DNA of 64,000 nt, taken from contig JAIUNR010000003.1 of NCBI GenBank assembly GCA_020161575.1, forward strand, positions 186,001-250,000. The letters are read 5' to 3'. The notes below the pieces were generated by a model, which was given only the letters and a program-made list of their open reading frames with translations, made no database searches and was not told the DNA's origin. Source of the DNA: Pseudomonadota bacterium (GTDB lineage: Bacteria; Pseudomonadota; Alphaproteobacteria; Rhizobiales; Beijerinckiaceae). Both the position numbers and the translations under genes were made by a program. This document shows positions 31,772 to 54,352 of the stretch, piece after piece. The stretch's first letter is position 1. Every line of letters begins with the position of its first letter.

Positions 31772-31849
31772 TGGTCGGAGTGGCGGGATTCGAACCCACG
31801 ACCCCTAGTCCCCCAGACTAGTGCGCTAACCAGGCTGCGCTACACTCCG
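31772..31849 (-). tRNA. tRNA-Pro (anticodon GGG)
   Basis: Read on the minus strand. The acceptor arms CGGAGTG and CACTCCG pair perfectly (31849-31843 with 31782-31776), the anticodon stem CTAGT/ACTAG encloses the loop CTGGGGG, giving anticodon GGG, and the T arm has GGTTCGAATCC. CCA is encoded at the 3' end (31774-31772). It reads CCC and CCU proline codons. Confidence 0.95.
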
Positions 31850-42002: not shown

Positions 42003-43034
42003 CTACTTGGAGAAGCGCGAGAAGGTCATGTCGGGCGAGGACATGTTATGGCGCGAAGGCGTGTAGCGCCCGGCCCAGAACTCGGTCGTATCGCCGCCCT
42101 TGTAATCTAGGATGTGTTCCTCGCCCCAGCGCGTGACCCCCTTGCGGCGATACGCCACGCGCGAGGCATCGTTATTGATCTCGGTGACATACATCGAGCG
42201 CAGGGCCGCGAAGGGCTTGTCCTTGGGCAGATTGCCGGAAAGCTCGACCTCAAGGCTGATATGGTCGAAGTCCAGCTTGTCGAGCTTGAGGCTGCCCTCG
42301 CCACCATCGCGGAAGGGGAAATGGAAGGTCAGCGTTTCCGGCTCGAAGCGGATTTCCTTGAACGCCACGACAGGGCGACCTTCCATCGTCACCGGCCCGA
42401 CCATGAAGGAGGAGCCATAGGCGGTCCAGTTCATGTGCTTGGCCGGCAGCGGCCGGGCGCGCCAATAGCCATCCGGCGGGTAGACCACCAGCATCTCCTC
42501 CATGCGCTGACCGATGCGCTGGTAGACCTGAACGAGGTGGATGCCGTGCTCGACCTTGTCGCCCACCTTCACGGGCACATCCGCCGGGCGCCAGAATCCG
42601 GGATACACCTGCCCGACGATCCACAGCCATGGGGTTTCGTAGAGCGTCACCTGCCGCGGCTTGCCGGGATTGAAGACCGGATCGGAGGACATGTCGCAAT
42701 CGGTGAAATCCGGCAGAGCCAGATCTTCCTTGAGCGTGCCGATATAGGCCGGGTGGATCGCCTGCACCCGGAACTTGCGGATCTCGGGTCCCAGGAAGCG
42801 GATGTCGATATTGTCCTTCTCGGCGCAGACTTCCGGCTCCGAATGGTTCTCGACCCGCACTGTCTCGCTCGGCGGCTTCTTGTTATGGGCGCCGAGGGTG
42901 GTTTGGTCGGGCGCGGAAGTCTGGGCTTGCGCAGTATCGTCGCAGCACATGAGAACACCTGTCAGAAGAAGGAGGGAGGAAAGGAAGGCGAAGTGTTTTT
43001 TCGGCCAGGCGCCAAAGCGCGACGCGCCGTTCAT
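42003..43034 (-). CDS. Secreted protein of unknown family in the opgH operon
   Basis: About 343 residues from ATG 43034; ATG 43064 is an alternative that would overlap the upstream gene. Signal peptide: basic start, hydrophobic [13 protein letters not shown], then [11 protein letters not shown]. The mature part is beta-rich with conserved-looking pieces such as [57 protein letters not shown] and [15 protein letters not shown]. No catalytic motif or known fold is evident. As last gene after the glucan synthase and methyltransferase it may bind or process periplasmic glucan, by context alone. Confidence 0.75.
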
Positions 43035-43050
43035 CGCAAGGGCTCCGATC

Positions 43051-43815
43051 TCAGAGGAAGGCATAGACATCCCCCGAATTCGCATCATGCGGCAGCGAGG
43101 CGATATGCGCGGCCATGTCGCCGGCGGGAACGGGATCGGAAAAGTGCATGTGCTGGCTTTCCCCGAGCGCGACATTGAACCTGTAGGGTCCCAGCGCCGC
43201 GATCATCGCGATGCATTTGGCCGCAACATCGCGCTGGATTGTCGTGAACTCGAAGGAAAGCGCACGCACGGGCTTCGTGAGTCCGGCAAGGACATCCGCC
43301 TCGAAACCCTCGACATCGATCTTGATGAAATCCGGCATCCCGTGCCGGGCGATCAGCGCGTCGAGCGTCGTCACAGGCACTTCGATCGCGCGGTCCCAGA
43401 CCTGCCCTTCCCAGCCTGCCGCGCCATCCGCCGCCTTCACGAAATCGGACGAAGCGGTGGTCACGGTCGGGTTGGCCGAATTGACATGCAGCGTCAGCGT
43501 GCCCGCCTTCGGGCCACACGCACCTTCCAACAGGGTGACGCCGGCATCCTCCGCATAGACCGCGCGGATCGCGCCGGCACAATCCGGCTGCGGCTCCAGC
43601 GCGACGACGCGCACGCCCAGCCGACGGAAAGAGCCGATCCGGTCGCCGACATGGCTGCCGATGTCGAAGGCCAGCGCGCCGGATTTGAGGATGCGCCCGT
43701 AGAGCGCATCCATGGCATCATCGCGTGGCTGGTCCCCGTAATAGACCTCGAAGGAGCGCGTGAGGCGCGGCCATTGCGCGCCAAGCGCCGCGATACGATC
43801 AGCCGGGAGGGTCAC
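43051..43815 (-). CDS. FkbM family methyltransferase
   Basis: 254 residues from a GTG at 43815 that overlaps the opgH stop as GTGA. SAM motif I: ALAFDIGSHVGDRIGSFRRL; motif II: VVALEPQPDCAGAI; then the FkbM hallmark DALIARHGMPDFIKIDVEGF. FkbM-type enzymes methylate hydroxyl groups of sugars and natural products. The overlap with the glucan synthase suggests methylation of the glucan or its precursor. Confidence 0.9.
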   Translation of the reverse strand: MTLPADRIAALGAQWPRLTRSFEVYYGDQPRDDAMDALYGRILKSGALAFDIGSHVGDRIGSFRRLGVRVVALEPQPDCAGAIRAVYAEDAGVTLLEGACGPKAGTLTLHVNSANPTVTTASSDFVKAADGAAGWEGQVWDRAIEVPVTTLDALIARHGMPDFIKIDVEGFEADVLAGLTKPVRALSFEFTTIQRDVAAKCIAMIAALGPYRFNVALGESQHMHFSDPVPAGDMAAHIASLPHDANSGDVYAFL

Positions 43816-45614
43816 GAATGGGCCTCCGGGCTCTCGATGGCCTGCGCCTTCAGCACGATTTCCGGCTTCTCGATTTCCTCGGGGATCGCATAGAGGCCGG
43901 CCCGGACCAGCTTCTCGCCCAGGGCCGGATCGGCGCTCCAGACCGCGAAGGGAATGGCGATCAGGAAGCCGAGCGTCAGCGGCAGCGACCACAGCGCGAA
44001 GCTCACCGAGGTATAGGCCATCAGCCCCACCACCACGACGCCGAACAACGTCTGCGGCCAGAGATTCTCGGTCGCGACATCCCACGGCACGCCATGCGCG
44101 TCGCGCGCCTGACCGCCCCAGGTGATCGACTTGCCGATCAGCAGCCCGAGGATGAAGACGGTGGTCTTGAACGTATCCGCTGCGCCGAGCACCCAGGCGA
44201 AGAAGATCTCGGTGATGCCGGCGAAAAGGAATTTCGACGTGCCACCATAGCGCGCCGTGCCGCCGGGGGTCAGCAGGATATCGATCAACCCGGCGATCTT
44301 CGGCATCAGGTTCATGATCGTGAAGAGGATATACAGCGTCAGCGCCGAGGCGGCAGGGAAGAGCGCGAGGCTTTCTCCGTCGAAGGGTTTGAGCGCCGCG
44401 AGCGGGAGCATCAAGGTCCAGGCCGGGATGCCGAGGAACATCAGGATGGCCCAGATCAGCTGGAAGCGCGAGCTGGGGTAGAGCCCCTTGGTGTCGAGCA
44501 GCTTCACATATTGCAGGTTGCCCTGGCACCAGCGCGTGTTGCGCTTCATGAATTCGAGGATGGTCGGCGGGTTTTCCTCCCAGGAGCCGCCCTCCTCCGG
44601 CATCACGCGCACCTCATAGCCCGCGCGGCGCATGAAGGTGGCCTCGACCTGATCGTGGCTGAGAATATGCCCGCCGAAGGGCGGCTCGCCCTTGAGCACC
44701 GGCAGATGGCACTGATCGCGGAAGGGAGCGATGCGCGCGAGCGCGTTATGGCCCCAGAACGGGCCGCATTCGCCCACCCACCAGGCCTGCCCCATCGTGT
44801 AGGAGCGCATGCCCTGGCGCATGCCGAACTGGAAGATGCGCGCGAAGGCGCTCTTCGACGGCATGCCGACAACGAGGCTCTGGAGGATGCCCAGCTTCGG
44901 GTTGGCCTGCATGATGCGCACATGATGGAGGATCGTCTTCGCATCCATCAGGCTGTCGGCATCGAGCGGCAGCATGAGTTCGAACCCATGGCCCCAGCGT
45001 TCGAGGAAATCGCGCACGTTGCCGGCCTTGAAGCCGGTATTGTCCGTGCGGCGGCGATAGGTGATCGGCGCGCCCTCGCCCGCTTCCGCCTTCCACTTGG
45101 CGACCCCCGCCTCCTCTTCGGCCGCGACATCGTCGCGGTTGGTGTCGGAGAGCAGGAAATAGGCGAAATGGGCGCCCTCGCCCGTCGCGTCGATATCGGC
45201 CTTGATCAGCTTCATCCGGTGGAGCGCGCGGGCCGGGTCCTCGTTGCGCAGGGTCATGAAGATCGCGGTCTTCACGCCGATCGGCGCTTTAGGGTCCGGC
45301 AGGTCGGCGAAGGGCGCGACCTCTTCCATCGCGTTTTTCCCGCCATGAAGCAGCCAGAGGCCGATCACGGAGTTCCAGAAACCGAGCACCGCCCAGGGCG
45401 TGCCGAAGATCATGCAGATGAACAGCAGGATGTCGATGACACTCCACCCTCCCGCGCCGAGAATGGAACCGGCCCAGATGAGAATCGCGCCATAAAGGAC
45501 GATGTTGAGCACCGCGATGATCGTGCGGCGCAAGGTGAGAACCTCGGCGCTCTGGGTGCCGGTCGGCGTCAGCGTGATCTTTGGTTTCGGGGAGGTGGCG
45601 TTGTCCGCGGACAT
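43812..45614 (-). CDS. opgH: Glucans biosynthesis glucosyltransferase (OpgH/MdoH-like)
   Basis: 600 residues. N-terminal helices (about 28-95), the GT2 catalytic core with SDTNRDDV, RRTDNTGFKAGNVRDF, the DxD site LPLDADSLMD and NTRWCQGNLQYVKLL (Q-x-x-R-W-like), then C-terminal helices. OpgH makes the beta-1,2-glucose backbone of osmoregulated periplasmic glucans from UDP-glucose and moves it to the periplasm. It is shorter than the 850-residue E. coli protein, in keeping with alphaproteobacterial forms. No opgG lies nearby. The start at 45614 is the likeliest; an earlier ATG at 45632 cannot be excluded. Confidence 0.92.
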   Translation of the reverse strand: MSADNATSPKPKITLTPTGTQSAEVLTLRRTIIAVLNIVLYGAILIWAGSILGAGGWSVIDILLFICMIFGTPWAVLGFWNSVIGLWLLHGGKNAMEEVAPFADLPDPKAPIGVKTAIFMTLRNEDPARALHRMKLIKADIDATGEGAHFAYFLLSDTNRDDVAAEEEAGVAKWKAEAGEGAPITYRRRTDNTGFKAGNVRDFLERWGHGFELMLPLDADSLMDAKTILHHVRIMQANPKLGILQSLVVGMPSKSAFARIFQFGMRQGMRSYTMGQAWWVGECGPFWGHNALARIAPFRDQCHLPVLKGEPPFGGHILSHDQVEATFMRRAGYEVRVMPEEGGSWEENPPTILEFMKRNTRWCQGNLQYVKLLDTKGLYPSSRFQLIWAILMFLGIPAWTLMLPLAALKPFDGESLALFPAASALTLYILFTIMNLMPKIAGLIDILLTPGGTARYGGTSKFLFAGITEIFFAWVLGAADTFKTTVFILGLLIGKSITWGGQARDAHGVPWDVATENLWPQTLFGVVVVGLMAYTSVSFALWSLPLTLGFLIAIPFAVWSADPALGEKLVRAGLYAIPEEIEKPEIVLKAQAIESPEAHS

Positions 45615-45812
45615 GGAAGAAGAAGCCCTCATGAATGGTCTGCCGGCGAGCCGGCCAATCTGGCGCAAGGCTGGACGGGAGGAAAGCGGCCGGCAAGATT
45701 TTGCCGTCCCCGCTTCCCTCTTGCCAAGCCTTTCACGGAATGAAAAGGCTTCGCCAGCTTCGCCCATGCCCTATCGCGTTTCAAACCTGAACGAAAGCAA
45801 ACCGGGACGCTC

Positions 45813-46814
45813 ATGACACAGCAAACTTCGCCGAAAACCGCGCGCGCCCTGTTCTATTCCGGCCCGATGCAGGCGGAACTGCGCGCGGTGCCGCTGGAAA
45901 CGGCGAGCGAATCACGCGCGATCGTCAGAACGGAATTCACGGCGCTTTCGCGCGGCACCGAGCGCCTGATCGCCTCCGGTCTCGTGCCGGAAGCGGAATA
46001 TGAACGCATGCGCTGCCCTTTGCAGGAGGGTGATTTCCCCTTCCCCGTGAAATACGGCTATTGCGCCGTCGGCGTGGTGGAGGATGGTCCTGCCGCATGG
46101 CTCGGAAAGCGCGTCTTCGTGCTTCATCCGCATCAGGAACGCTTTTCGTGCGACGTAGGCTGGCTCAACCTCGTGCCTGATTTCGTCTCGCCGGCGCGGG
46201 CGAGCCTTGCCGCCAATATGGAGACCGCGCTCAACGCGATCTGGGATTCGGGCGTCTCGGCGGCGGACAGGGTGGTTGTCGTCGGCGGCGGGCTTGTCGG
46301 CCTGCTCGTGACCTACCTCGCCGCGCGCATGCCCGGTACGGAGGTGACCCTCGTCGATATCAATGCCGAGCGCGCGCAGATCGCGGGCCATCTGGGCGCG
46401 CATTTCGCGCTGCCGGAACACGCGCCCAAAGGCGCGGATGTGGTTTTCCATACTTCGGCCAGCCAGGCGGGGCTCGCGACCGCGATCGGCGCCGCCGGCA
46501 AGGAGGCTCGCGTGATCGAGCTTTCCTGGTATGGCGACAAGGTGATCGCCGCGCCGCTCGGCGGCTTGTTCCATGCCGGGCGGGTCAGTCTCGTCTCCTC
46601 GCAGGTCGGCACGATTTCTCCCGGCCATGCCGCGCGCGGCTGGACCTATTCATCGCGCCTTCAGGCAGCCTTGCGCTTATTGGCGGATGACAGGCTCGAC
46701 GCGCTCATTACCGAGCGCCTTGCTTTCGACCAGCTCGCACCGGCCATTCCGAGGCTTCTCGCCGCGGATGCGCCGGGGCTGGCGACACTGGTGACCTATC
46801 GTGAGAAGGAGTGA
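45813..46814 (+). CDS. Medium-chain (zinc-type) dehydrogenase-like protein
   Basis: 333 residues with the medium-chain dehydrogenase/reductase layout: N-terminal GroES-like part (TEFTALSRGTERLIASGLVP), then a Rossmann domain with VVVVGGGLVGLLVTYLAARM and VTLVDINAERAQIAGHLGAH. The catalytic zinc cysteine of classical enzymes is not evident where AREFTALSRGTE-like text stands instead of a GxCxTD motif, so it belongs to the bacteriochlorophyllide/threonine-dehydrogenase-related branch without a typical metal centre. It is divergent from opgH and opens the pterin-like cluster. Confidence 0.82.
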   Translation: MTQQTSPKTARALFYSGPMQAELRAVPLETASESRAIVRTEFTALSRGTERLIASGLVPEAEYERMRCPLQEGDFPFPVKYGYCAVGVVEDGPAAWLGKRVFVLHPHQERFSCDVGWLNLVPDFVSPARASLAANMETALNAIWDSGVSAADRVVVVGGGLVGLLVTYLAARMPGTEVTLVDINAERAQIAGHLGAHFALPEHAPKGADVVFHTSASQAGLATAIGAAGKEARVIELSWYGDKVIAAPLGGLFHAGRVSLVSSQVGTISPGHAARGWTYSSRLQAALRLLADDRLDALITERLAFDQLAPAIPRLLAADAPGLATLVTYREKE

Positions 46815-46840
46815 CCATGCAGGGGATATATGAAACCCGC

Positions 46841-46925
46841 GTCATGGCCGGGCTTGGACCGGCCATCCACGCCTTCATCCGGCCGGGTCAAAGTCGTGAA
46901 TGCCCGGCCTGAAGCCGGGCATGAC
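46841..46925. repeat. Dispersed palindromic repeat (type B)
   Basis: The ends GTCATGGCCGGGCTT (46841-46855) and AAGCCGGGCATGAC (46912-46925) are near-perfect reverse complements, with GGCCGG-rich inner stems. It lies between the dehydrogenase and PTPS-like genes. Text of this kind recurs in alphaproteobacterial intergenic regions. It may fold in RNA and reduce read-through between the two genes. Confidence 0.7.
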
Positions 46926-46969
46926 GAAAAAGAATTGCTCTCCTCGTTCTATCGACAAAGGAAATATCC

Positions 46970-47371
46970 ATGTTCGCCGTAGAAGTCCGTGACCGCATCA
47001 TGATCGGCCATTCGCTCCCCGACCCGTTCTTCGGACCGGCGCAGGCGATGCATGGCGCGACCTTTGTGGTCGATGTCGCGTTTTTCCGCGAGAAGATGAC
47101 CAAGCAGAACGTGGTGGTCGATATCGGCGCGGCGCTGGATACCTTGGCCGCCGTGCTCAAGCCGCTGAAATACCAGAATCTCGACAATCTGCCCGAATTC
47201 AAGGGCAAGCTGACGACCACCGAGTTTCTCGCGCATCACATCTTCGAGGAAATGGCGAAGGCCGCCAAATCCGGCGCCCTGGGCGAGGACGGCAAGGGCC
47301 TGACGAAGATCCGCGTAACCTTGCACGAAACCGACCTCGCCCGCGCCTGGTTCGAAGGCCCCCTCGCCTGA
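46970..47371 (+). CDS. 6-pyruvoyl-tetrahydropterin synthase / QueD-fold protein with altered active site
   Basis: 133 residues, the length of QueD and PTPS. The fold is evident: VRDRIMIGHSL, VVDIGAALDTLAAVL, NLDNLPEFKGKLTTTEFLAH and IRVTLHETDLARAWF. H14 and H28 match two zinc ligands and E120 the substrate-binding glutamate. However, the third zinc His is Ala30 (MHGATF in place of HGH), the catalytic Cys position is Ala24, and the Asp-His pair is replaced (LKYQN, Y68). Ordinary PTPS or QueD chemistry is therefore unlikely. The start has AAGGAAA upstream. Confidence 0.82.
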   Translation: MFAVEVRDRIMIGHSLPDPFFGPAQAMHGATFVVDVAFFREKMTKQNVVVDIGAALDTLAAVLKPLKYQNLDNLPEFKGKLTTTEFLAHHIFEEMAKAAKSGALGEDGKGLTKIRVTLHETDLARAWFEGPLA

Positions 47372-47383
47372 GGCCGCACGATC

Positions 47384-48445
47384 ATGGCTTCCGTTGCCTT
47401 CCTGATCCCCGGCGATCTCAGCCTGCCCACCGGCGGCTACGGCTATGACCGCGCGGTCATCCGCCTGCTGCCGGGGCATGGCGTCGAGACCATGCATGTC
47501 GCGCTGCCGGGCAGTTACCCCACCCCTTCGGCGGCGGATCTTAGCGATTGCGCCGCCATCGTCGCCGCGCTTCCGGCCGATTGCATCCTGCTGATCGACG
47601 GGCTGGCCTATGGCACGATGCCGGCGGATCTCATCCGCGGCTTCGGGCGCAAGGTGGTGGCCCTGTGCCACCATCCGCTCGCGCTCGAAAACGGCATCTC
47701 GGCCGAACGCGCCGAAGCCCTGCACGCTTCCGAGCGTCAGGCTCTGGCGCTGGCGGATCATGTCATCGTCACTTCCGCATTGACCGGCAAGATCCTGACC
47801 GGCGATTTCGGCGTGCCCGCGCAGAAAATCACCGTCGCCGAGCCCGGCACCGCCCGCAAGGCGCGCGCCACCGGGTCCGGCACGGCAGGGCTCGATCTCC
47901 TCGCCGTCGGGTCGATCGTGCCACGCAAGGGCTATGGCGTGCTGATCGAAGCGCTTTCGGGGCTGAAAAAGCGTGATTGGCATCTCAGAATCGTCGGCGC
48001 CGCACGCGCGCCGGAGAGCGTCGCCGCGCTTCAGGCGCAGATCGAGCGCGAGGGGCTGACGGCGCGTGTCGAGCTGCTCGGCGCGGTCCGCGAGAAGGAA
48101 CTCGACAGCCTTTTCGAGAAGGCCGATCTCTTCGTCATGTCCTCGCTTTTCGAAGGCTATGGCATGGTGCTCGGCGAAGCGCTCCAGCGCGGCCTGCCGA
48201 TCGTCACCACTACCGGCGGGGCGGCGAGCGAGACCGTGCCGCAAGGCGCGGGCCTCAAGGTGCCGCCCGGCGATGCCGACGCACTGCGCATCGCGCTCGA
48301 CAAGGCGATGGGCGACCCTGCCCTGCGCGCTGAACTCGCGCGCGCGGCCTATGCCGCCGGCGAAAAACTCCCGACCTGGGAAGATACCGCCCGCATCGTC
48401 GCCGGCGCGCTTTCCCCTTATCTTCTGCACAGAAAGGCTTCGTAA
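47384..48445 (+). CDS. Glycosyltransferase family 4 of the pterin-like cluster
   Basis: 353 residues, GT-B fold. The C-terminal donor domain has LDLLAVGSIVPRKGYGVLIE, LRIVGAARAPESVAAL and SSLFEGYGMVLGEALQRGLP (the E-x7-E site), plus TTGGAASETVP. The N-terminal domain starts MASVAFLIPGDLSLPTGGYG. It begins 12 bases after the PTPS-like stop and shares one base with the methyltransferase start (TAATG), so the three are one operon. The acceptor may be the small molecule made by the cluster, as in known pterin glucosyltransferases; this is inference. Confidence 0.9.
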   Translation: MASVAFLIPGDLSLPTGGYGYDRAVIRLLPGHGVETMHVALPGSYPTPSAADLSDCAAIVAALPADCILLIDGLAYGTMPADLIRGFGRKVVALCHHPLALENGISAERAEALHASERQALALADHVIVTSALTGKILTGDFGVPAQKITVAEPGTARKARATGSGTAGLDLLAVGSIVPRKGYGVLIEALSGLKKRDWHLRIVGAARAPESVAALQAQIEREGLTARVELLGAVREKELDSLFEKADLFVMSSLFEGYGMVLGEALQRGLPIVTTTGGAASETVPQGAGLKVPPGDADALRIALDKAMGDPALRAELARAAYAAGEKLPTWEDTARIVAGALSPYLLHRKAS

Positions 48446-49299
48446 TGAGCGGTTTTTCCGCCTCCTGGCTCGCGCTCCGCGAGGGCGCCGACCATCGCTC
48501 GCGCCATGACGGCCTCGCCAAAATTCTCGCGAGCCGCCTCGCGGGCAAGGATTGCGTTCGCGTCATCGATCTGGGCGCCGGCTCCGGCTCCAACCTGCGC
48601 GCCACCGCGCCCGCCTTGGGCCCGAAGCAGGAATGGGTTCTGGTCGATTACGATCGCAGCCTGATCGCCGCCGCCAAGGCCACGCTCTGTGCCTGGGCGG
48701 ACAAGGGTGTGGAAACCGGCGACGGCTTGACGCTTGAAAAGGACGGCAAGGTCATCAGCGTGTCCTTCCGCGAGGCCGATCTCAACCGCGAGCTTGATGC
48801 CGTGCTCGGCATCCCGGCGGATCTCGTGACGGCTTCGGCCCTGTTCGACCTGATTTCCGAACGCTGGATGCAGCGTTTCGCCCGCGCGCTCGCCGCGAAG
48901 GGCTGCCTGTTCTACACCGTGCTCACCTATGACGGGCGTGATGACTTCGCCCCCGCCCATCCGCTCGATCCCGCGGTGATCCATGCCTTCAGCCTGCATC
49001 AGAAGCGCGACAAGGGGTTCGGCCCCGCCGCCGGCCCCGATGCCGCAGAGGCGCTGGCGGAAGCCTTCCGCGCCGCCGGCTATACGGTCGAAACCGGGGA
49101 TTCGCCCTGGATTCTGGGCGCACAAGACAATGCGCTCGTCGGCGAATTGCTCGGCGGCATTGCCGGTGCCGTGCAGGAAACCGGCCTTGCGAGCAAAGCC
49201 GATCTCGACGCCTGGCTCGCCTTCCGGCGGCAAGCCGCGACGAAAGAGGGCGCGCGCCTTGTCACCGGCCATACGGATATTCTCGCCAGCCCGAAATGA
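48445..49299 (+). CDS. Class I SAM-dependent methyltransferase
   Basis: 284 residues. SAM motif I VIDLGAGSGSNLRATAPAL, acidic strand EWVLVDYDRSL, then LVTASALFDLISERWMQRFA. The opening SASWLALREGADHRSRHDGL is not a family I can name. It is translationally coupled to the glycosyltransferase. Small-molecule O- or N-methylation is the likely chemistry; substrate unknown. Confidence 0.88.
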   Translation: MSGFSASWLALREGADHRSRHDGLAKILASRLAGKDCVRVIDLGAGSGSNLRATAPALGPKQEWVLVDYDRSLIAAAKATLCAWADKGVETGDGLTLEKDGKVISVSFREADLNRELDAVLGIPADLVTASALFDLISERWMQRFARALAAKGCLFYTVLTYDGRDDFAPAHPLDPAVIHAFSLHQKRDKGFGPAAGPDAAEALAEAFRAAGYTVETGDSPWILGAQDNALVGELLGGIAGAVQETGLASKADLDAWLAFRRQAATKEGARLVTGHTDILASPK

Positions 49300-49319
49300 A
49301 GGCGCGAGGCGGAAGCTCC

Positions 49320-49868
49320 TCAGGGCAGCATCCGCTTGAGCACCCCGTCTTTCAGCACGAAGCGATGCATCAAAGCCGCGCCGATATGGGCGGCGATGAG
49401 CACCGCCATCGCGAAGGCGGCATAGCCATGGTATTTCAGGATGAGCTTGCCGAGATCGGGATTGGGCGCGAGCAAGGCGGGAAGCTGGAAACCGCCGAGT
49501 ATCCCGCGCGCATCGAAGGCGGAGACGCCGAGCCAGCCGAGCAGCGGCACCGCCAGCAGCAGCAGATAGAGCAGGCCGTGAACCGCCTCCGCTGCGATCA
49601 CCTGGAGCCGGCTCAGCCCCGGCTCCGGTAGCGGCGTGCCGCGCCGGGTGCGGACGATCACGCGCAGGATCACCAGCATCAGCACCAGAAAGCCGAAGGT
49701 CTTGTGCGCGGTATAGAGCTGGTTCGTCACCGCGTCGAAATTGGTCGCGAGCCCCCGCCGGACCATGTTGACGCCGACGGCAATCAGCACAAGCACGATC
49801 ACCGCAATGACCCAGTGGAGCAGCTTCTGGAGGCCGGAATAGCCGGCGGGGCGGTTGGCGGCGTTCAT
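49320..49868 (-). CDS. Cytochrome b561
   Basis: 182 residues, four membrane helices, from ATG 49868 behind GGGAGGAA. Heme-ligand histidines lie in GLQKLLHWVIAVIVL, LYTAHKTFGFLVLML, AAEAVHGLLYLLLL and AAHIGAALMHRFVLKDG, the usual pattern of the bacterial b561 family. It moves electrons in the inner membrane, for instance from quinol to an acceptor such as superoxide. It follows the RibD-like gene by 26 bases. Confidence 0.92.
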   Translation of the reverse strand: MNAANRPAGYSGLQKLLHWVIAVIVLVLIAVGVNMVRRGLATNFDAVTNQLYTAHKTFGFLVLMLVILRVIVRTRRGTPLPEPGLSRLQVIAAEAVHGLLYLLLLAVPLLGWLGVSAFDARGILGGFQLPALLAPNPDLGKLILKYHGYAAFAMAVLIAAHIGAALMHRFVLKDGVLKRMLP

Positions 49869-49894
49869 CTTTCCTCCCGCCGCCTTGAGGCGGC

Positions 49895-50587
49895 TTATCG
49901 TCTCAGGTCGCAATCGAATAGCACATCCCCCTCGCCGAGCGAAATCACCTCGGTTTTCGGGCGGATCGCGTCGCGCAGCATGTCGATCGGGGCGAGATCG
50001 AGCCCGGCCTGCCCCGAACCGATGATGACGGGCGAAATCATCAGATGGAGCCGGTCCACGATGCCGGCATCGATCGCAAGGCTGATGATGCGCGCGCCGC
50101 CCTCGATCAGCACTTTCCCGAATCCGAGTTCCGCCAGCTTGCCCGCAAGCACCGGCAGGGCGAAATGCCCCTGCGCATCGACGGGAAGACGCACGGTTTC
50201 AACCCCTTCCGGCAGCGTGCCCTCCACGCCTTGCGGCCGGAAGACGATGCGCCGCGCGCCATCCGCCCCGGAGAGGCATTTGGCGTCGAACGGGAGCTTC
50301 CCCTTCGCATCGATCACGAGACGCGCGGGGTTGTTTCCCTCGCAGCGCCGGACATTGAGCTGCGGATCATCGGCCAGGACGGTGCCGATCCCCACCAGCA
50401 CCGCATCGACATGCGCGCGAATGCGGTGAAGGTGGTCGAGCGAGGGCGCACCGCCGATATAGCGGCTATCGCCCGTGCGCGTGGCGATGCGCCCGTCGAG
50501 CGATTGGCCGAGCTGGGCGACGATGAACGGGCGCTCGCGCGTTTCCCGGATGAAATGACGGAATGGGGCCAGAACATTCTGCGGCAT
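49895..50587 (-). CDS. RibD C-terminal-type pyrimidine reductase
   Basis: 230 residues with only the reductase half of RibD: RPFIVAQLGQSLDGRIATRT, HRIRAHVDAVLVGIGTVLADD, GFGKVLIEGGARIISLAIDA and RLHLMISPVIIGSG. RibD reductase converts the ribosylamino- to ribitylamino-pyrimidine with NADPH; the related dihydrofolate-reductase fold is used for pterins. No deaminase domain is present. It is divergent from the GTP cyclohydrolase II gene, which would supply its substrate. Confidence 0.9.
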   Translation of the reverse strand: MPQNVLAPFRHFIRETRERPFIVAQLGQSLDGRIATRTGDSRYIGGAPSLDHLHRIRAHVDAVLVGIGTVLADDPQLNVRRCEGNNPARLVIDAKGKLPFDAKCLSGADGARRIVFRPQGVEGTLPEGVETVRLPVDAQGHFALPVLAGKLAELGFGKVLIEGGARIISLAIDAGIVDRLHLMISPVIIGSGQAGLDLAPIDMLRDAIRPKTEVISLGEGDVLFDCDLRR

Positions 50588-50786
50588 TTTCTTGAATTCA
50601 TTCCTTCGAGGAGCCGTTTTTCCCAGCAGGCGCGGGGATCAGGTCGATTTCTTTTTCCTGCCCGCTTTCAGACAGGTACCGTTCATCTTCAGCTTCGCAT
50701 AAATAGCGCCATCTTCGGAACACGGTGTCCATCCGGTGGGATAATCCCAGCCGACAAGACCGTTAACATGGACGAAAGAGGCGTAA

Positions 50787-51908
50787 ATGGGTGACTTTGG
50801 TCAAATTCTCGGGCTTTTCGACACAGCGGGCGAGCGTGCGGTGGACCGCGCGATCGCGGAATACCGCGCCGGCCGCCCGGTGGCAATTCTTGAAGGCGGC
50901 GAGGCCCTCGTCGCGCTGAATGTCGAGGCGCTCGATGCGCGCGTCGCTGCGGCGCTCGACACATTGGCGCCGGGCCGCGCGCGTCTGGCGCTGCCTGCGG
51001 CACGCCTGCGCCGCCTCGGTCTCGACCGGACCCAGCCCGGTATCGTGGCTTTCCCGGTTCCCGATGCGGCACGTGCGGAAACGCTTGCGCTCAAGATCGA
51101 CGCGCGGATCGATGCGCCGGTCGCGCCGGTCGTTCCGCTCGACGAGGCCGCGCTCGAACTCGCCCGCGTCACGATGGTGACGCCGGCCGTCTACGTGATC
51201 CCGGTGGAGAAAAGCGCGCTCGGCGCGGGGATCGCCACCGTGGACGCCGCCGATATCCGCGATTACCGCGCCAGCCAGGTCAAAGCGATGAAGATCGTCG
51301 GCCGCGCGCCGGTGCCGCTGGAATTCGCGGCGGAAACCGAATTCGTCGTCTTCCGCGGCGGCGAGGGCCTGCGCGATCAGGTCGCGATCATCGTCGGCAA
51401 GCCGGATCTGTCGAAGCCCGTGGCCATCCGCATGCATTCCGCCTGCCTGACCGGGGATCTTTTCGGCTCGCTCAAATGCGATTGCGGCGACCAGCTGCGC
51501 GGCACCGTCCAGAAAATGGCGGAGAGCGATGGCGGCATCCTGCTCTATCTCGATCAGGAAGGACGTGGCAACGGCATCTCGAACAAGATGCGCGCCTACA
51601 AGCTTCAGTCGCAGGGCTGGGACACCTATGACGCGGACGAGGTCCTCGGCTTCGGTCTCGACCAGCGCCGCTTCGATTTCGCTGCCGTGATGCTGCGTCA
51701 GCTCGGTGTCTCGACCGTGCGCGTGATGACAAACAACCCCGAGAAGATCGGCGCGCTGAAGGCAGCCGGTCTCGAGGTGGTCGCCGATCAGCGGGCCTTC
51801 GGTCGGCAGACGGCGGAAAACATCCGCTACCTTGCCTCGAAGCGTGATCGCGCTGGCCATTTCATCGATTTCGATGCCATGGTCGCCCACGCGCCGGTCA
51901 ACGGCTAG
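50787..51908 (+). CDS. GTP cyclohydrolase II with a non-canonical N-terminal domain
   Basis: 373 residues. The C-terminal half is RibA: zinc ligands C220, C231 and C233 in MHSACLTGDLFGSLKCDCGD, then LYLDQEGRGNGISNKMRAYK, and VRVMTNNPEKIGALKAAGLE. It opens GTP to the riboflavin-type pyrimidine. The first 130 residues occupy the place of the RibB domain in RibBA but lack RibB motifs such as the acidic and cysteine active-site loop, so dihydroxybutanone phosphate synthesis is not expected. This suggests a dedicated enzyme for the neighbouring pathway. GAGGCGTAA precedes the start. Confidence 0.9.
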   Translation: MGDFGQILGLFDTAGERAVDRAIAEYRAGRPVAILEGGEALVALNVEALDARVAAALDTLAPGRARLALPAARLRRLGLDRTQPGIVAFPVPDAARAETLALKIDARIDAPVAPVVPLDEAALELARVTMVTPAVYVIPVEKSALGAGIATVDAADIRDYRASQVKAMKIVGRAPVPLEFAAETEFVVFRGGEGLRDQVAIIVGKPDLSKPVAIRMHSACLTGDLFGSLKCDCGDQLRGTVQKMAESDGGILLYLDQEGRGNGISNKMRAYKLQSQGWDTYDADEVLGFGLDQRRFDFAAVMLRQLGVSTVRVMTNNPEKIGALKAAGLEVVADQRAFGRQTAENIRYLASKRDRAGHFIDFDAMVAHAPVNG

Positions 51909-51964: not shown

Positions 51965-54352
51965 ATGCTTCAGCGCCTTTCACGCAAAAAAAATGCCGCG
52001 TCTTCGAAGGAAGACGCGGCTTTCGTCTATTCGCCAGGCCGTCCGGCCAGCGCCAACCGTCAATGGTTCGCGGTCATAGGGCTGCTTCTGGCTGTCTCGG
52101 GGCTGCTATGCTGGCCATGGCTTTTGGGACAGGTCACCATTCCCTGGGATGCGAAAGCGCATTTTCAGGCACAGATCGCCTTTCTCGCGCAGTCGATCCA
52201 TTCCGGCCAAAGCCCTTTCTGGGCGCCTTATGTCTTTTCGGGCCATCCCCAGATCGCGGATCCGCAATCGCTGATCTTCTCGCCCGGCTTCGTGCTGCTG
52301 GCCCTGTTCACCCCGAATCCCGGCTTTGCGATGGTGGATGGGGTCGTCTTCGCCAATCTGGTCTTCGGCGCGCTGGGAATGATCGGCTTCGCGCGTGACC
52401 GGCGCTGGCATCCCGCCGCCGCGATCATCGCGGCCCTGTGCTTTGCTTATGGCGGCAGCGCGGCATGGCGCATCCAGCATGTCGGGCAGATCCTCAGCCT
52501 CACCTTTTTCCCCTGGGCGCTCTGGATGCTGGAGCGCGGGCTTCGTCTCTCCTCCGCGCGTTACGGGGCGCTCTCCGGCCTTTTCGCGGGGCTGATGGTG
52601 CTCGGCCCGGATCAGGTCGCGTATCTCGGCCTTATCGCGCTCACCCTGTTCACGCTGGCGCATATCGTTTCCGGGCCGGGCATGCCGGCGCGGATGCGCG
52701 CGGCGATCCGCCCGCTTTTCTCCGGCGCGGTGATCGGCGGCGCCATCATCTCGGTCCAGCTTCTGATGGTGCTGACTTTCGCGGATGGTTCCAACCGCGC
52801 CCAGTTCGGTTTTGACGAGGCGGCGAAAGGCTCGCTCCACCCATCGAGCCTGCTGACCTTCGTGATCGCCAATCTCTTCGGCACCATCGGGCCGAATGAG
52901 GAATTCTGGGGCGCCCCCTCGGTGCATTGGCCCTATATCGTCGATTCCAACGTGGCGCGGAACATGGCGAATTTCTACATGGGCGCGCTGCCGCTGATCG
53001 CGGCGCTGGGCTGGCTGACAAGCCGCCTCGCCTATGCCCGGCGCATGGTGACATTCACCCTGATCTTCGGCGTGATGCTGGCTTACGCGCTCGGGCGCTA
53101 TACACCGGTTTTCGGCACCCTTTATGCCCTTCTGCCGGGCGTCGATCTCTTCCGTCGTCCCGCGGATGCCACCTTCCTGATCGGCGCGCTGGGCGCCATT
53201 CTTGCCGGATTTGGGCTCAATGCGCTGCTCTCGGCGCCACAAGGCACAGCGTTGCGGCGTGTATTGCTGGTGGCCGGGCTCTTTGCGGCTCTGAGCCTTT
53301 GCGCCGGTCTCGGGATGGCGCTGTGGCTTGGCAAAACCACCAGCGCGCTACCGGAAATCGGTATCGCCATGGCGACCTTTGGCGCCTCGGCGCTAGCGCT
53401 GGTCTATGCCTGCCGCCATGCCCGCGCTCACCCGATGCGCGCGGCCGCGATCCTGGCAGCAACGCTTGCGGCGGACCTTGCCTGGAATATCCGCCCCAAC
53501 GATTCGACCGGACTTCCCCCCTCGGTCTATGCCGAGTTGCGCCCCGACGCGCCCAACGAGACGCTCGATTTCCTCAAGGCGCATGTCGTGAGGAGCGACA
53601 CCCGCCGCGATCGCGTGGAACTGGTCGGGCTCGGCTTCGAATGGCCGAATATCGGCTTGATCCACAAGCTGGAAAACACGCTCGGCTACAATCCCTTGCG
53701 CGTGGCGAGCTATGCCGCCGCCGCCGGCGCGCCCGATCAGGTCGCCTCGCCCGAACAGCGCAAATTCTCGCCGCTCTTCTGGGGGTATCGTTCGCCCTTC
53801 GCCAATCTCCTGGGGCTTCGCTATATCGCGACATCGGTTCCGATTGAAAAGATCGACCCGGCTCTAGGGGAAAGCGCGCTGCCGCTCGTCGCCCGCACCG
53901 CGGAAGGCTATATCTACGAGAATCCCGATGCTCTCCCGCGCGTAATGATCGTGCCAGAGGCTCAGGCAACCGATCAGGACTGGCTGATCTCTTCCGGCGA
54001 ATGGCCCTCGACCGACCTCACCAAAGTCGCCTTCGTCGAGCCGAGCGCACTTCCCCTGCCTCGACGGAACTTCCGCGGCGGCACCAGCGCCGCACGTATC
54101 ACCCGTTATACGAATACCGAAGTCGAGATCGAGGTGTCGGCCAGCAGGGGCGGCGTGCTGCTGCTCAACGATATTTGGCACCCTTGGTGGTTCGCAGAGA
54201 TCGATGGCAAACCCGCCAAGGTTTTGCGCGCTAATGGCGTGTTCCGCGCGGTGATCCTGCCCGCCGGCGCGCAGAAGGTGGTTTTCACCTTCGAACCGAT
54301 GCGCGGGCTGATCCGACGCTATCTGCTCAAGCGCGGGTTGATCTCCGGCTGA
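51965..54352 (+). CDS. Large YfhO-like integral membrane protein
   Basis: 795 residues. About 13 membrane helices fill residues 35-500, followed by a soluble C-terminal region ending in a beta domain (VEIEVSASRGGVLLLNDIWH, KVVFTFEPMRGLIRRYLLKR). The layout and WDAKAHFQAQIAF near residue 60 resemble YfhO-type GT-C proteins that glycosylate lipoteichoic acid in Firmicutes; the function in alphaproteobacteria is unknown. The ATG has a good GGGGAG ribosome site. Codons 8-20 overlap a strong hairpin. Confidence 0.82.
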   Translation: MLQRLSRKKNAASSKEDAAFVYSPGRPASANRQWFAVIGLLLAVSGLLCWPWLLGQVTIPWDAKAHFQAQIAFLAQSIHSGQSPFWAPYVFSGHPQIADPQSLIFSPGFVLLALFTPNPGFAMVDGVVFANLVFGALGMIGFARDRRWHPAAAIIAALCFAYGGSAAWRIQHVGQILSLTFFPWALWMLERGLRLSSARYGALSGLFAGLMVLGPDQVAYLGLIALTLFTLAHIVSGPGMPARMRAAIRPLFSGAVIGGAIISVQLLMVLTFADGSNRAQFGFDEAAKGSLHPSSLLTFVIANLFGTIGPNEEFWGAPSVHWPYIVDSNVARNMANFYMGALPLIAALGWLTSRLAYARRMVTFTLIFGVMLAYALGRYTPVFGTLYALLPGVDLFRRPADATFLIGALGAILAGFGLNALLSAPQGTALRRVLLVAGLFAALSLCAGLGMALWLGKTTSALPEIGIAMATFGASALALVYACRHARAHPMRAAAILAATLAADLAWNIRPNDSTGLPPSVYAELRPDAPNETLDFLKAHVVRSDTRRDRVELVGLGFEWPNIGLIHKLENTLGYNPLRVASYAAAAGAPDQVASPEQRKFSPLFWGYRSPFANLLGLRYIATSVPIEKIDPALGESALPLVARTAEGYIYENPDALPRVMIVPEAQATDQDWLISSGEWPSTDLTKVAFVEPSALPLPRRNFRGGTSAARITRYTNTEVEIEVSASRGGVLLLNDIWHPWWFAEIDGKPAKVLRANGVFRAVILPAGAQKVVFTFEPMRGLIRRYLLKRGLISG
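51986..52023. other. Terminator-like hairpin inside the YfhO-like 5' coding region
   Basis: An A8 run (51986-51993) precedes the perfect 11-bp stem GCCGCGTCTTC/GAAGACGCGGC (51995-52005 with 52010-52020), GAAG loop, then TTTC. On the minus strand it is a textbook intrinsic terminator; on the plus strand the T run is short. It lies within codons 8-20 of a gene with a convincing ribosome site, so it may act as an attenuator or slow the ribosome, or stop antisense transcription. Confidence 0.7.

Follow-up and report, generated by a model that had tools for sequence, protein, structure and literature searches.

The closest protein of known structure to the one at the center of this study is SCO6650 of Streptomyces coelicolor (PDB 3d7j), a homolog of 6-pyruvoyltetrahydropterin synthase (PTPS) of unknown function for which the structure paper is said to report no zinc and no PTPS activity. 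We analyzed a relative of SCO6650 encoded in a set of seven genes at positions 45813 to 51908 of a 64,000-nucleotide stretch of DNA from a Pseudomonadota bacterium of the family Beijerinckiaceae, order Rhizobiales (GCA_020161575.1, contig JAIUNR010000003.1, positions 186,001 to 250,000 of the forward strand; the whole stretch is called the window here). SCO6650 is the top PDB match of the PTPS-like protein (residues 1 to 130 aligned, 130 bits), and large actinobacterial genomes carry the same run of genes for a medium-chain dehydrogenase/reductase (MDR), the PTPS-like protein, a family 4 glycosyltransferase (GT4) and a methyltransferase (MT). Five such actinobacterial loci differ from the window in that their GTP cyclohydrolase II (GCHII) has methionine for tyrosine at the catalytic site and a creatininase gene next to it, and a RibD C-terminal reductase (RibD_C) was not found at these loci.

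A second described system that resembles part of the gene set is the archaeal and fungal branch of riboflavin synthesis (MjaRED, PDB 2azn, and ScRIB7), where reduction precedes deamination and where the reductase, like RibD_C of the window, has neither a deaminase domain nor the lysine that determines specificity. That branch serves riboflavin, whereas no relatives of the window genome's RibE, RibH or RibD deaminase domain were found at 142 loci with a PTPS-like gene or in the window (tblastn, E 1e-5). According to a mutagenesis study, lysine at the site of BsRibG Lys151 selects the deaminated substrate, the same site is threonine in fungi and asparagine in archaea, and the T35K exchange in ScRIB7 switched the preference (PMC3631187); RibD_C differs from all of these in having glutamine. 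A third system, in the same bacterial order and with the same GTP-derived intermediates, is the BrbF route: Sinorhizobium meliloti without RibBA is not a riboflavin auxotroph and needs the formamidase BrbF, and the creatininase family includes a bacterial formamidase that acts on the formylated intermediate (PMC9478397). BrbF, too, serves riboflavin, with a partner cyclohydrolase described as undiscovered (PMC9478397), and the window has no creatininase gene (tblastn).

Here we find that the clustering of these genes is conserved across distantly related bacteria. We give a probability of about 0.5 to the reading that the seven genes form one dedicated branch of GTP metabolism, apart from riboflavin, that would lead to a glycosylated and methylated 2-amino-4-oxo-pyrimidine or pteridine. 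Among the papers listed by searches of an open-licence library, several of which gave just the best 15 to 20 hits, none describes the cluster in its title or displayed abstract.

Results

Conservation of the gene set

Profile searches of the open reading frames (ORFs) identified genes for MDR, PTPS-like protein, GT4, MT, cytochrome b561, RibD_C and GCHII. Six of these had been named in an earlier note on this DNA and lie where it had placed them; the b561 gene within the set and a pair of genes for OpgH and FkbM proteins beside it had been overlooked, and the conserved cluster is larger than the note had drawn it.

For the comparison with other genomes, 142 loci with a PTPS hit were fetched besides the window, of which 28 had less than 7 kb on a side and 3 of the remaining 114 were duplicate fetches. 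The 111 distinct loci that remained, each flanked by 7 kb or more in both directions, were all selected for the PTPS-like gene and are uninformative on genomes that do not have it; genes were assigned by homology-guided choice of ORFs, and the host group of some loci was taken from the search sample. MDR, GT4 and MT genes all lie near the PTPS-like gene in 97 of the 111 loci, from Alphaproteobacteria, other Pseudomonadota and Actinomycetota, so the clustering is not due to chance, and the expectation that the same genes would be found together elsewhere was borne out. Taken singly, MDR was near in 107 loci, GT4 in 105, MT in 105, RibD_C in 69, b561 in 57 and GCHII in 54, and one locus (L045) had none of the core partners.

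The PTPS-like gene is present in 54 of 199 sampled genomes of the order and, at E 1e-20, in 27 of 398 genomes of a phylum sample, 11 of them outside the class. A scan of named-species genomes matched at least 596 stretches, 587 of which encode a PTPS-like relative, and the best 80 loci were taken further. Within the family of the window, the gene occurs in two other genera and not in eight listed genomes of further genera; the closest named relative among the matches listed is Rhabdaerophilum calidifontis, with a PTPS-like protein 90% identical and the same layout. In a phylum sample around a genome titled Aquiluna (G199), taken as Actinomycetota, 54 of 296 genomes match at E 0.001, mostly weakly, and 8, G199 included, reach at least 97.7 bits; the locus from a metagenome-assembled genome titled Aquiluna (L162) is laid out like those of several Rhodobacteraceae, which may point to misbinning. 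The clustering is thus genuine, and it extends further than the sequence of one locus could show.

Gene order varies between lineages, and much of the gene content stays. In several Rhodobacteraceae loci, GT4 and an inositol-phosphatase-like gene lie upstream, with MT directly 3' of the PTPS-like gene and then RibD_C. All eight loci L191 to L198, outside the class, have a CDP-alcohol transferase, MDR, PTPS, GT4 and MT; the fullest, L192 and L197, additionally have UPF0104, RibD_C, GCHII, creatininase and FkbM genes, and OpgH relatives are found at L194, L196 and L197. In the five large actinobacterial genomes (L183 to L187), the core of four genes is accompanied by genes for a CDP-alcohol transferase, UPF0104, creatininase and GCHII, and two other actinobacterial loci (L188 and the short L190) have GCHII together with RibD_C. 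Of the recurring neighbor families that the window does not have, 14 were scanned with Pfam using one representative each, and two of these gave no family.

Layout of the locus

The plus strand carries MDR (45813 to 46814, 333 amino acids), the PTPS-fold protein (46970 to 47371, 133 amino acids; PF01242, 73.6 bits), GT4 (47384 to 48445, 353 amino acids; PF00534, 105.7 bits) and MT, a class I S-adenosylmethionine methyltransferase (48445 to 49299, 284 amino acids; PF08242, 29.9 bits against a cut-off of 30) without an NCBIfam family at E 0.001. The GT4 and MT ORFs share one base and the PTPS-like and GT4 ORFs are 12 bases apart, so that these three genes read as an operon, with MDR 155 bases upstream of the PTPS-like gene. 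MDR is BchC-like (ADH_zinc_N, 30.6 bits against a cut-off of 31.8), and its score of 45.5 bits against BchC, its top NCBIfam match, is too far below the equivalog cut-off of 291.25 to make it a BchC; the stretches SRGTE and LHPHQ are common to MDR and its relatives. Cytochrome b561 (49320 to 49913, start codon uncertain; 96.3 bits) and RibD_C (49895 to 50587, 230 amino acids; 127.9 bits), both on the minus strand, overlap by 19 bases, and GCHII (50787 to 51908, plus strand; 168 bits) is divergent from RibD_C.

The gap between MDR and the PTPS-like gene contains an inverted repeat at 46843 to 46866 with the arms ATGGCCGG and CCGGCCAT, which resembles dispersed palindromes and whose pattern, with up to three mismatches allowed, had a single match in a search covering the window. 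The search for riboswitch control gave no candidate in the window at Rfam gathering scores.

The reductase and the cyclohydrolase

RibD_C has neither the deaminase domain nor the lysine of bacterial RibD, both of which are present in the riboflavin RibD of the same genome. At the site of BsRibG Lys151, 77 of 79 readable RibD_C sequences have glutamine and 2 have serine, with two more sequences gapped (duplicate sequences were left in the RibD_C, GCHII and PTPS-like alignments that were counted). A further 11 sequences were read by a text pattern, which found glutamine in 10 and missed the site in the eleventh; RibD_C of L199 and GCHII of L193 were excluded from these pattern-read counts. All 79 readable sequences keep the first aspartate of the ADDP stretch and 80 of 81 have Glu-Gly-Gly, the top PDB match is named ribosylamino-pyrimidinone phosphate reductase, and the archaeal model TIGR01508 is matched at 105.8 bits, below its cut-off of 186.45, with a site residue compatible with a non-deaminated substrate. 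Given the glutamine and the role that the mutagenesis work assigns to this site (PMC3631187), the substrate of RibD_C is probably the 2-amino compound, which would fit a pterin-like product that carries a 2-amino group.

The earlier note had regarded both enzymes as duplicates dedicated to the pathway, and had set the presence of a riboflavin gene set elsewhere in the genome as a check. Such a set exists: an nrdR-ribD-ribE-ribH-nusB run lies 12 to 15 kb downstream of GCHII, with a RibD that has the full deaminase and reductase. With ribD, ribE and ribH already present in the genome, RibD_C is an extra copy, and the reading of it as a plain riboflavin duplicate was rejected.

For GCHII, which may still serve riboflavin, the note's picture of a plain duplicate is not right. 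The protein matches NCBIfam NF006456 at 494.8 bits (cut-off 464), and its GCHII domain has the three zinc cysteines and the catalytic-site tyrosine of a GCHII (SACLTGDLFGSLKCDC and RAYKLQ), which suggests an intact enzyme. The cysteines are kept in 67 of 67 aligned sequences, and the catalytic-site position is tyrosine in 59, methionine in 5 and leucine in 3. Its N-terminal half appears degenerate: hhalign pairs it with RibB (probability 97, E 1e-10), but it is shorter, is missing the acidic motif and gave no match to PF00926 at E 0.001. The other RibBA of the genome, on a separate contig (L036, 4062 to 5357), has a complete RibB half (PF00926, 265 bits) and reads TRLHRANALSDVFGGG in place of the three cysteines in its GCHII half. 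The two proteins show complementary decay, and since they are the two PF00925 proteins found in the genome and the zinc site is intact in the cluster GCHII only, this enzyme is not a plain duplicate. RibBA proteins with the same cysteine loss were found in sister genera of the same family that do not have the cluster (G042, G117 and G196; L079, L080 and L082), where the search of the order gave no other match to the cluster GCHII and the RibD match is kept. Because only a cysteine-less RibBA was found there, riboflavin in those genera appears not to need such a GCHII.

The five methionine-type GCHII sequences are those of the actinobacterial loci L183 to L187, each with a creatininase gene adjoining. 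SCO6655 of S. coelicolor reportedly has methionine at this position and makes the formylated intermediate, and a methionine-type GCHII with an adjoining formamidase would reach the same product as the tyrosine enzyme. In PMC2853524, SCO6655 simply appears among the riboflavin metabolism enzymes as a GTP cyclohydrolase II. At 14 of the 111 loci the core has a creatininase-family gene nearby; the window genome has two genes of this family, not necessarily BrbF.

The PTPS-like protein

Two of the three positions that we take to be the zinc-binding histidines are kept in the PTPS-like protein and its relatives, and the third is alanine in 128 of 129 aligned sequences, with a gap in one. The presumed catalytic cysteine is replaced by alanine and the presumed Asp-His positions by other residues, so the protein does not qualify as a PTPS or QueD. 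A glutamate near the C-terminus, presumably the pterin-anchoring residue of the fold, is kept in 129 of 129 sequences, and the matches to PF01242 and to the 3d7j sequence indicate that the PTPS fold is retained as well.

Co-occurrence within the order

Among the 199 genomes of the order, the RibD_C type, counted at 153 bits or more (next match, 97.8), is present in 42, of which 41 are PTPS-positive (Fisher p 7e-30, relatedness ignored), and the sole RibD_C-positive genome without a PTPS-like gene, G123, is 56% complete. The GCHII type, counted at 190 bits or more, is present in 36, of which 30 are PTPS-positive (Fisher p 3e-15, relatedness ignored), from a hit list that mixes the cluster type with RibBA and with one counted match (G171) that spans residues 121 to 360 only. 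At second loci away from the PTPS-like gene, b561, RibD_C and GCHII, or two of the three, still lie together at seven of eight (L086 to L092), and at the eighth (L093) RibD_C alone was found.

Envelope-type neighbors and other features

Upstream of MDR and divergent from it lies a gene for an OpgH/MdoH-type membrane glucosyltransferase (43812 to 45767, minus strand), adjoined by one for an FkbM-family methyltransferase (43051 to 43812, minus strand). Genes near the core across the 111 loci include opgH in 67, FkbM in 44, CDP-alcohol transferase in 29, UPF0104 in 24 and a sulfatase-fold gene in 16. OpgH occurs without the CDP-alcohol transferase in 64 loci and the reverse in 26, with both in 3 and neither in 18 (uncorrected for relatedness). 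Genes for a CDP-alcohol phosphatidyltransferase, a sulfatase-fold protein and UPF0104/LPG_synthase_TM cluster beside the core in several lineages (L154, 15438 to 18681; L176, 4475 to 6133). The CDP-alcohol transferase is present in 15 of the 199 genomes of the order, and because just 9 of these are PTPS-positive we place it outside the core.

The OpgH-type neighbor recalls the genes for osmoregulated periplasmic glucans (OpgGH and OpgC), and of 45 loci compared, 4 have an OpgC-type gene. Unlike in the OpgGH system, the partner OpgG (PF04349) was not found in the window genome, which has the OpgH-type gene, or in the genus-mate that was sampled. In the order, OpgG is found in 41 of 54 PTPS-positive and 63 of 145 PTPS-negative genomes, and in G167 it directly adjoins GCHII. 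From this gene context we infer an envelope destination for the cluster product.

On the other side of the set, a YfhO-like membrane protein (51965 to 54352, plus strand; weak match) has a counterpart close to the core at just 14 of the 111 loci and is probably peripheral to the cluster. A minus-strand ORF of 390 amino acids at 42003 to 43175, as listed overlapping the FkbM gene by 125 bases, gave no Pfam or NCBIfam match at E 0.001. At gathering scores, Rfam gives a single match in the window, a minus-strand tRNA gene at 31775 to 31849.

Discussion

In the dedicated branch to which we give roughly even odds, GCHII would open GTP to 2,5-diamino-6-ribosylamino-pyrimidinone 5'-phosphate, as its intact active site suggests, and RibD_C would reduce the ribosyl to a ribityl chain without prior deamination, so that the 2-amino group is kept, as suggested by the glutamine at its specificity site. 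The PTPS-like protein might then hold the ring through the kept glutamate and reshape it in a reaction that does not use zinc, possibly a ring closure, and MDR might oxidize or reduce a side-chain carbon, both of which are speculative. Judged by their families, GT4 would attach a sugar and MT a methyl group, while b561 could, more speculatively, connect either an intermediate or the final product with electron transport in the membrane. The product would go to the cell envelope, as suggested by the OpgH and FkbM genes or, elsewhere, by the CDP-alcohol transferase, UPF0104-type flippase-like and sulfatase-fold neighbors. A more specific form of this outcome, a new redox-active 2-amino-pyrimidine or pteridine glycoside made across Pseudomonadota and Actinomycetota and transported to and anchored in the envelope on an OpgH-type glucan or, through the CDP-alcohol transferase and flippase, on a lipid, depending on the group, with b561 as its electron partner, is distinctly improbable. 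The earlier interpretation is partly supported as a whole: its GTP-derived ring compound that is built, reduced, glycosylated and methylated is what we also arrive at by inference.

A single dedicated branch is favored by the co-location and co-occurrence of the genes, by the second loci at which b561, RibD_C and GCHII stay in company, by content that persists while gene order shifts, by the lack of RibE, RibH and deaminase relatives at the PTPS loci, by the sister genera with a cysteine-less RibBA, and by the residues of RibD_C and GCHII, including the creatininase neighbors of the methionine type. Several observations weigh against it. The Fisher values for the co-occurrence of RibD_C and GCHII ignore phylogeny. 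Neither enzyme is strictly required, as 13 of the 54 PTPS-positive genomes do not have the RibD_C type and in 24 of the 54 no GCHII match reaches 190 bits, although weaker ones occur in some of these. The locus does not include RibD_C in 42 of 111 cases and GCHII in 57, and RibD_C was not found at the five actinobacterial creatininase loci. The GCHII type is also carried by six PTPS-negative genomes, and two of the three that were fetched have a RibB or RibBA gene within 4 kb, so this subfamily can belong to riboflavin synthesis; in the window genome, where there is no other intact GCHII, the cluster enzyme may also feed riboflavin. A creatininase gene is found near tyrosine-type GCHII as well (L058, L064, L167, L192 and L197), and its link to the methionine type is therefore not exclusive.

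An alternative is a true pterin route. Here the PTPS-like T-fold protein would rearrange the GCHII product and close it to a dihydropterin, much as GTP cyclohydrolase I does late in its own reaction, and RibD_C, whose fold is that of dihydrofolate reductase, would reduce the pterin and not the ribosylamino-pyrimidine. The invariant glutamate of the PTPS-like protein, with its presumed pterin-anchoring role, is consistent with this, and RibD_C is missing from PTPS-positive genomes and loci at the frequencies just given, as an accessory step might be. However, RibD_C keeps the aspartate and Glu-Gly-Gly residues and has a ribosylamino-pyrimidinone phosphate reductase as its top PDB match, and the PTPS-like protein does not have a full zinc site. 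We regard the pterin route as somewhat unlikely.

The locus could also consist of two unrelated modules, with b561, RibD_C and GCHII as a second supply of riboflavin precursor and MDR, PTPS, GT4 and MT making an envelope glycoconjugate that has no GTP-derived part. The two groups of genes lie apart in several genomes, and riboflavin could need the cluster GCHII since the other RibBA of the genome has a decayed GCHII half. Against this, the RibD_C type is nearly confined to PTPS-positive genomes (41 of 42) and is without the bacterial specificity lysine, the three sister-genus genomes do without the cluster GCHII type, and RibD_C and GCHII are found again with the core outside the class (L192, L193 and L197) and in the actinobacterial L188 and L190. 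We consider two separate modules unlikely. A 7-deazaguanine or queuosine-type route with the PTPS-fold protein as QueD, for which the shared fold and a weak match to the QueD model (30.4 bits) could be cited, is scarcely credible, being contradicted by a score far below the cut-off of 89.25 and by the alanines at the presumed catalytic cysteine and one presumed zinc histidine and the loss of Asp-His, and QueC and QueE were not among the 14 Pfam-scanned neighbor families, in which no search was aimed at them.

A gene set of such breadth usually means a compound that is made by many bacteria. The RibBA pair with complementary decay is relevant to the question of the enzyme with which riboflavin synthesis begins in Rhizobiales, since the BrbF study describes the cyclohydrolase as undiscovered (PMC9478397). 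If the dedicated branch is true, it would be an overlooked part of GTP metabolism, distinct from the routes to folate, riboflavin and queuosine, and SCO6650, a solved structure still called uncharacterized in the PDB, would gain a pathway that can be tested.

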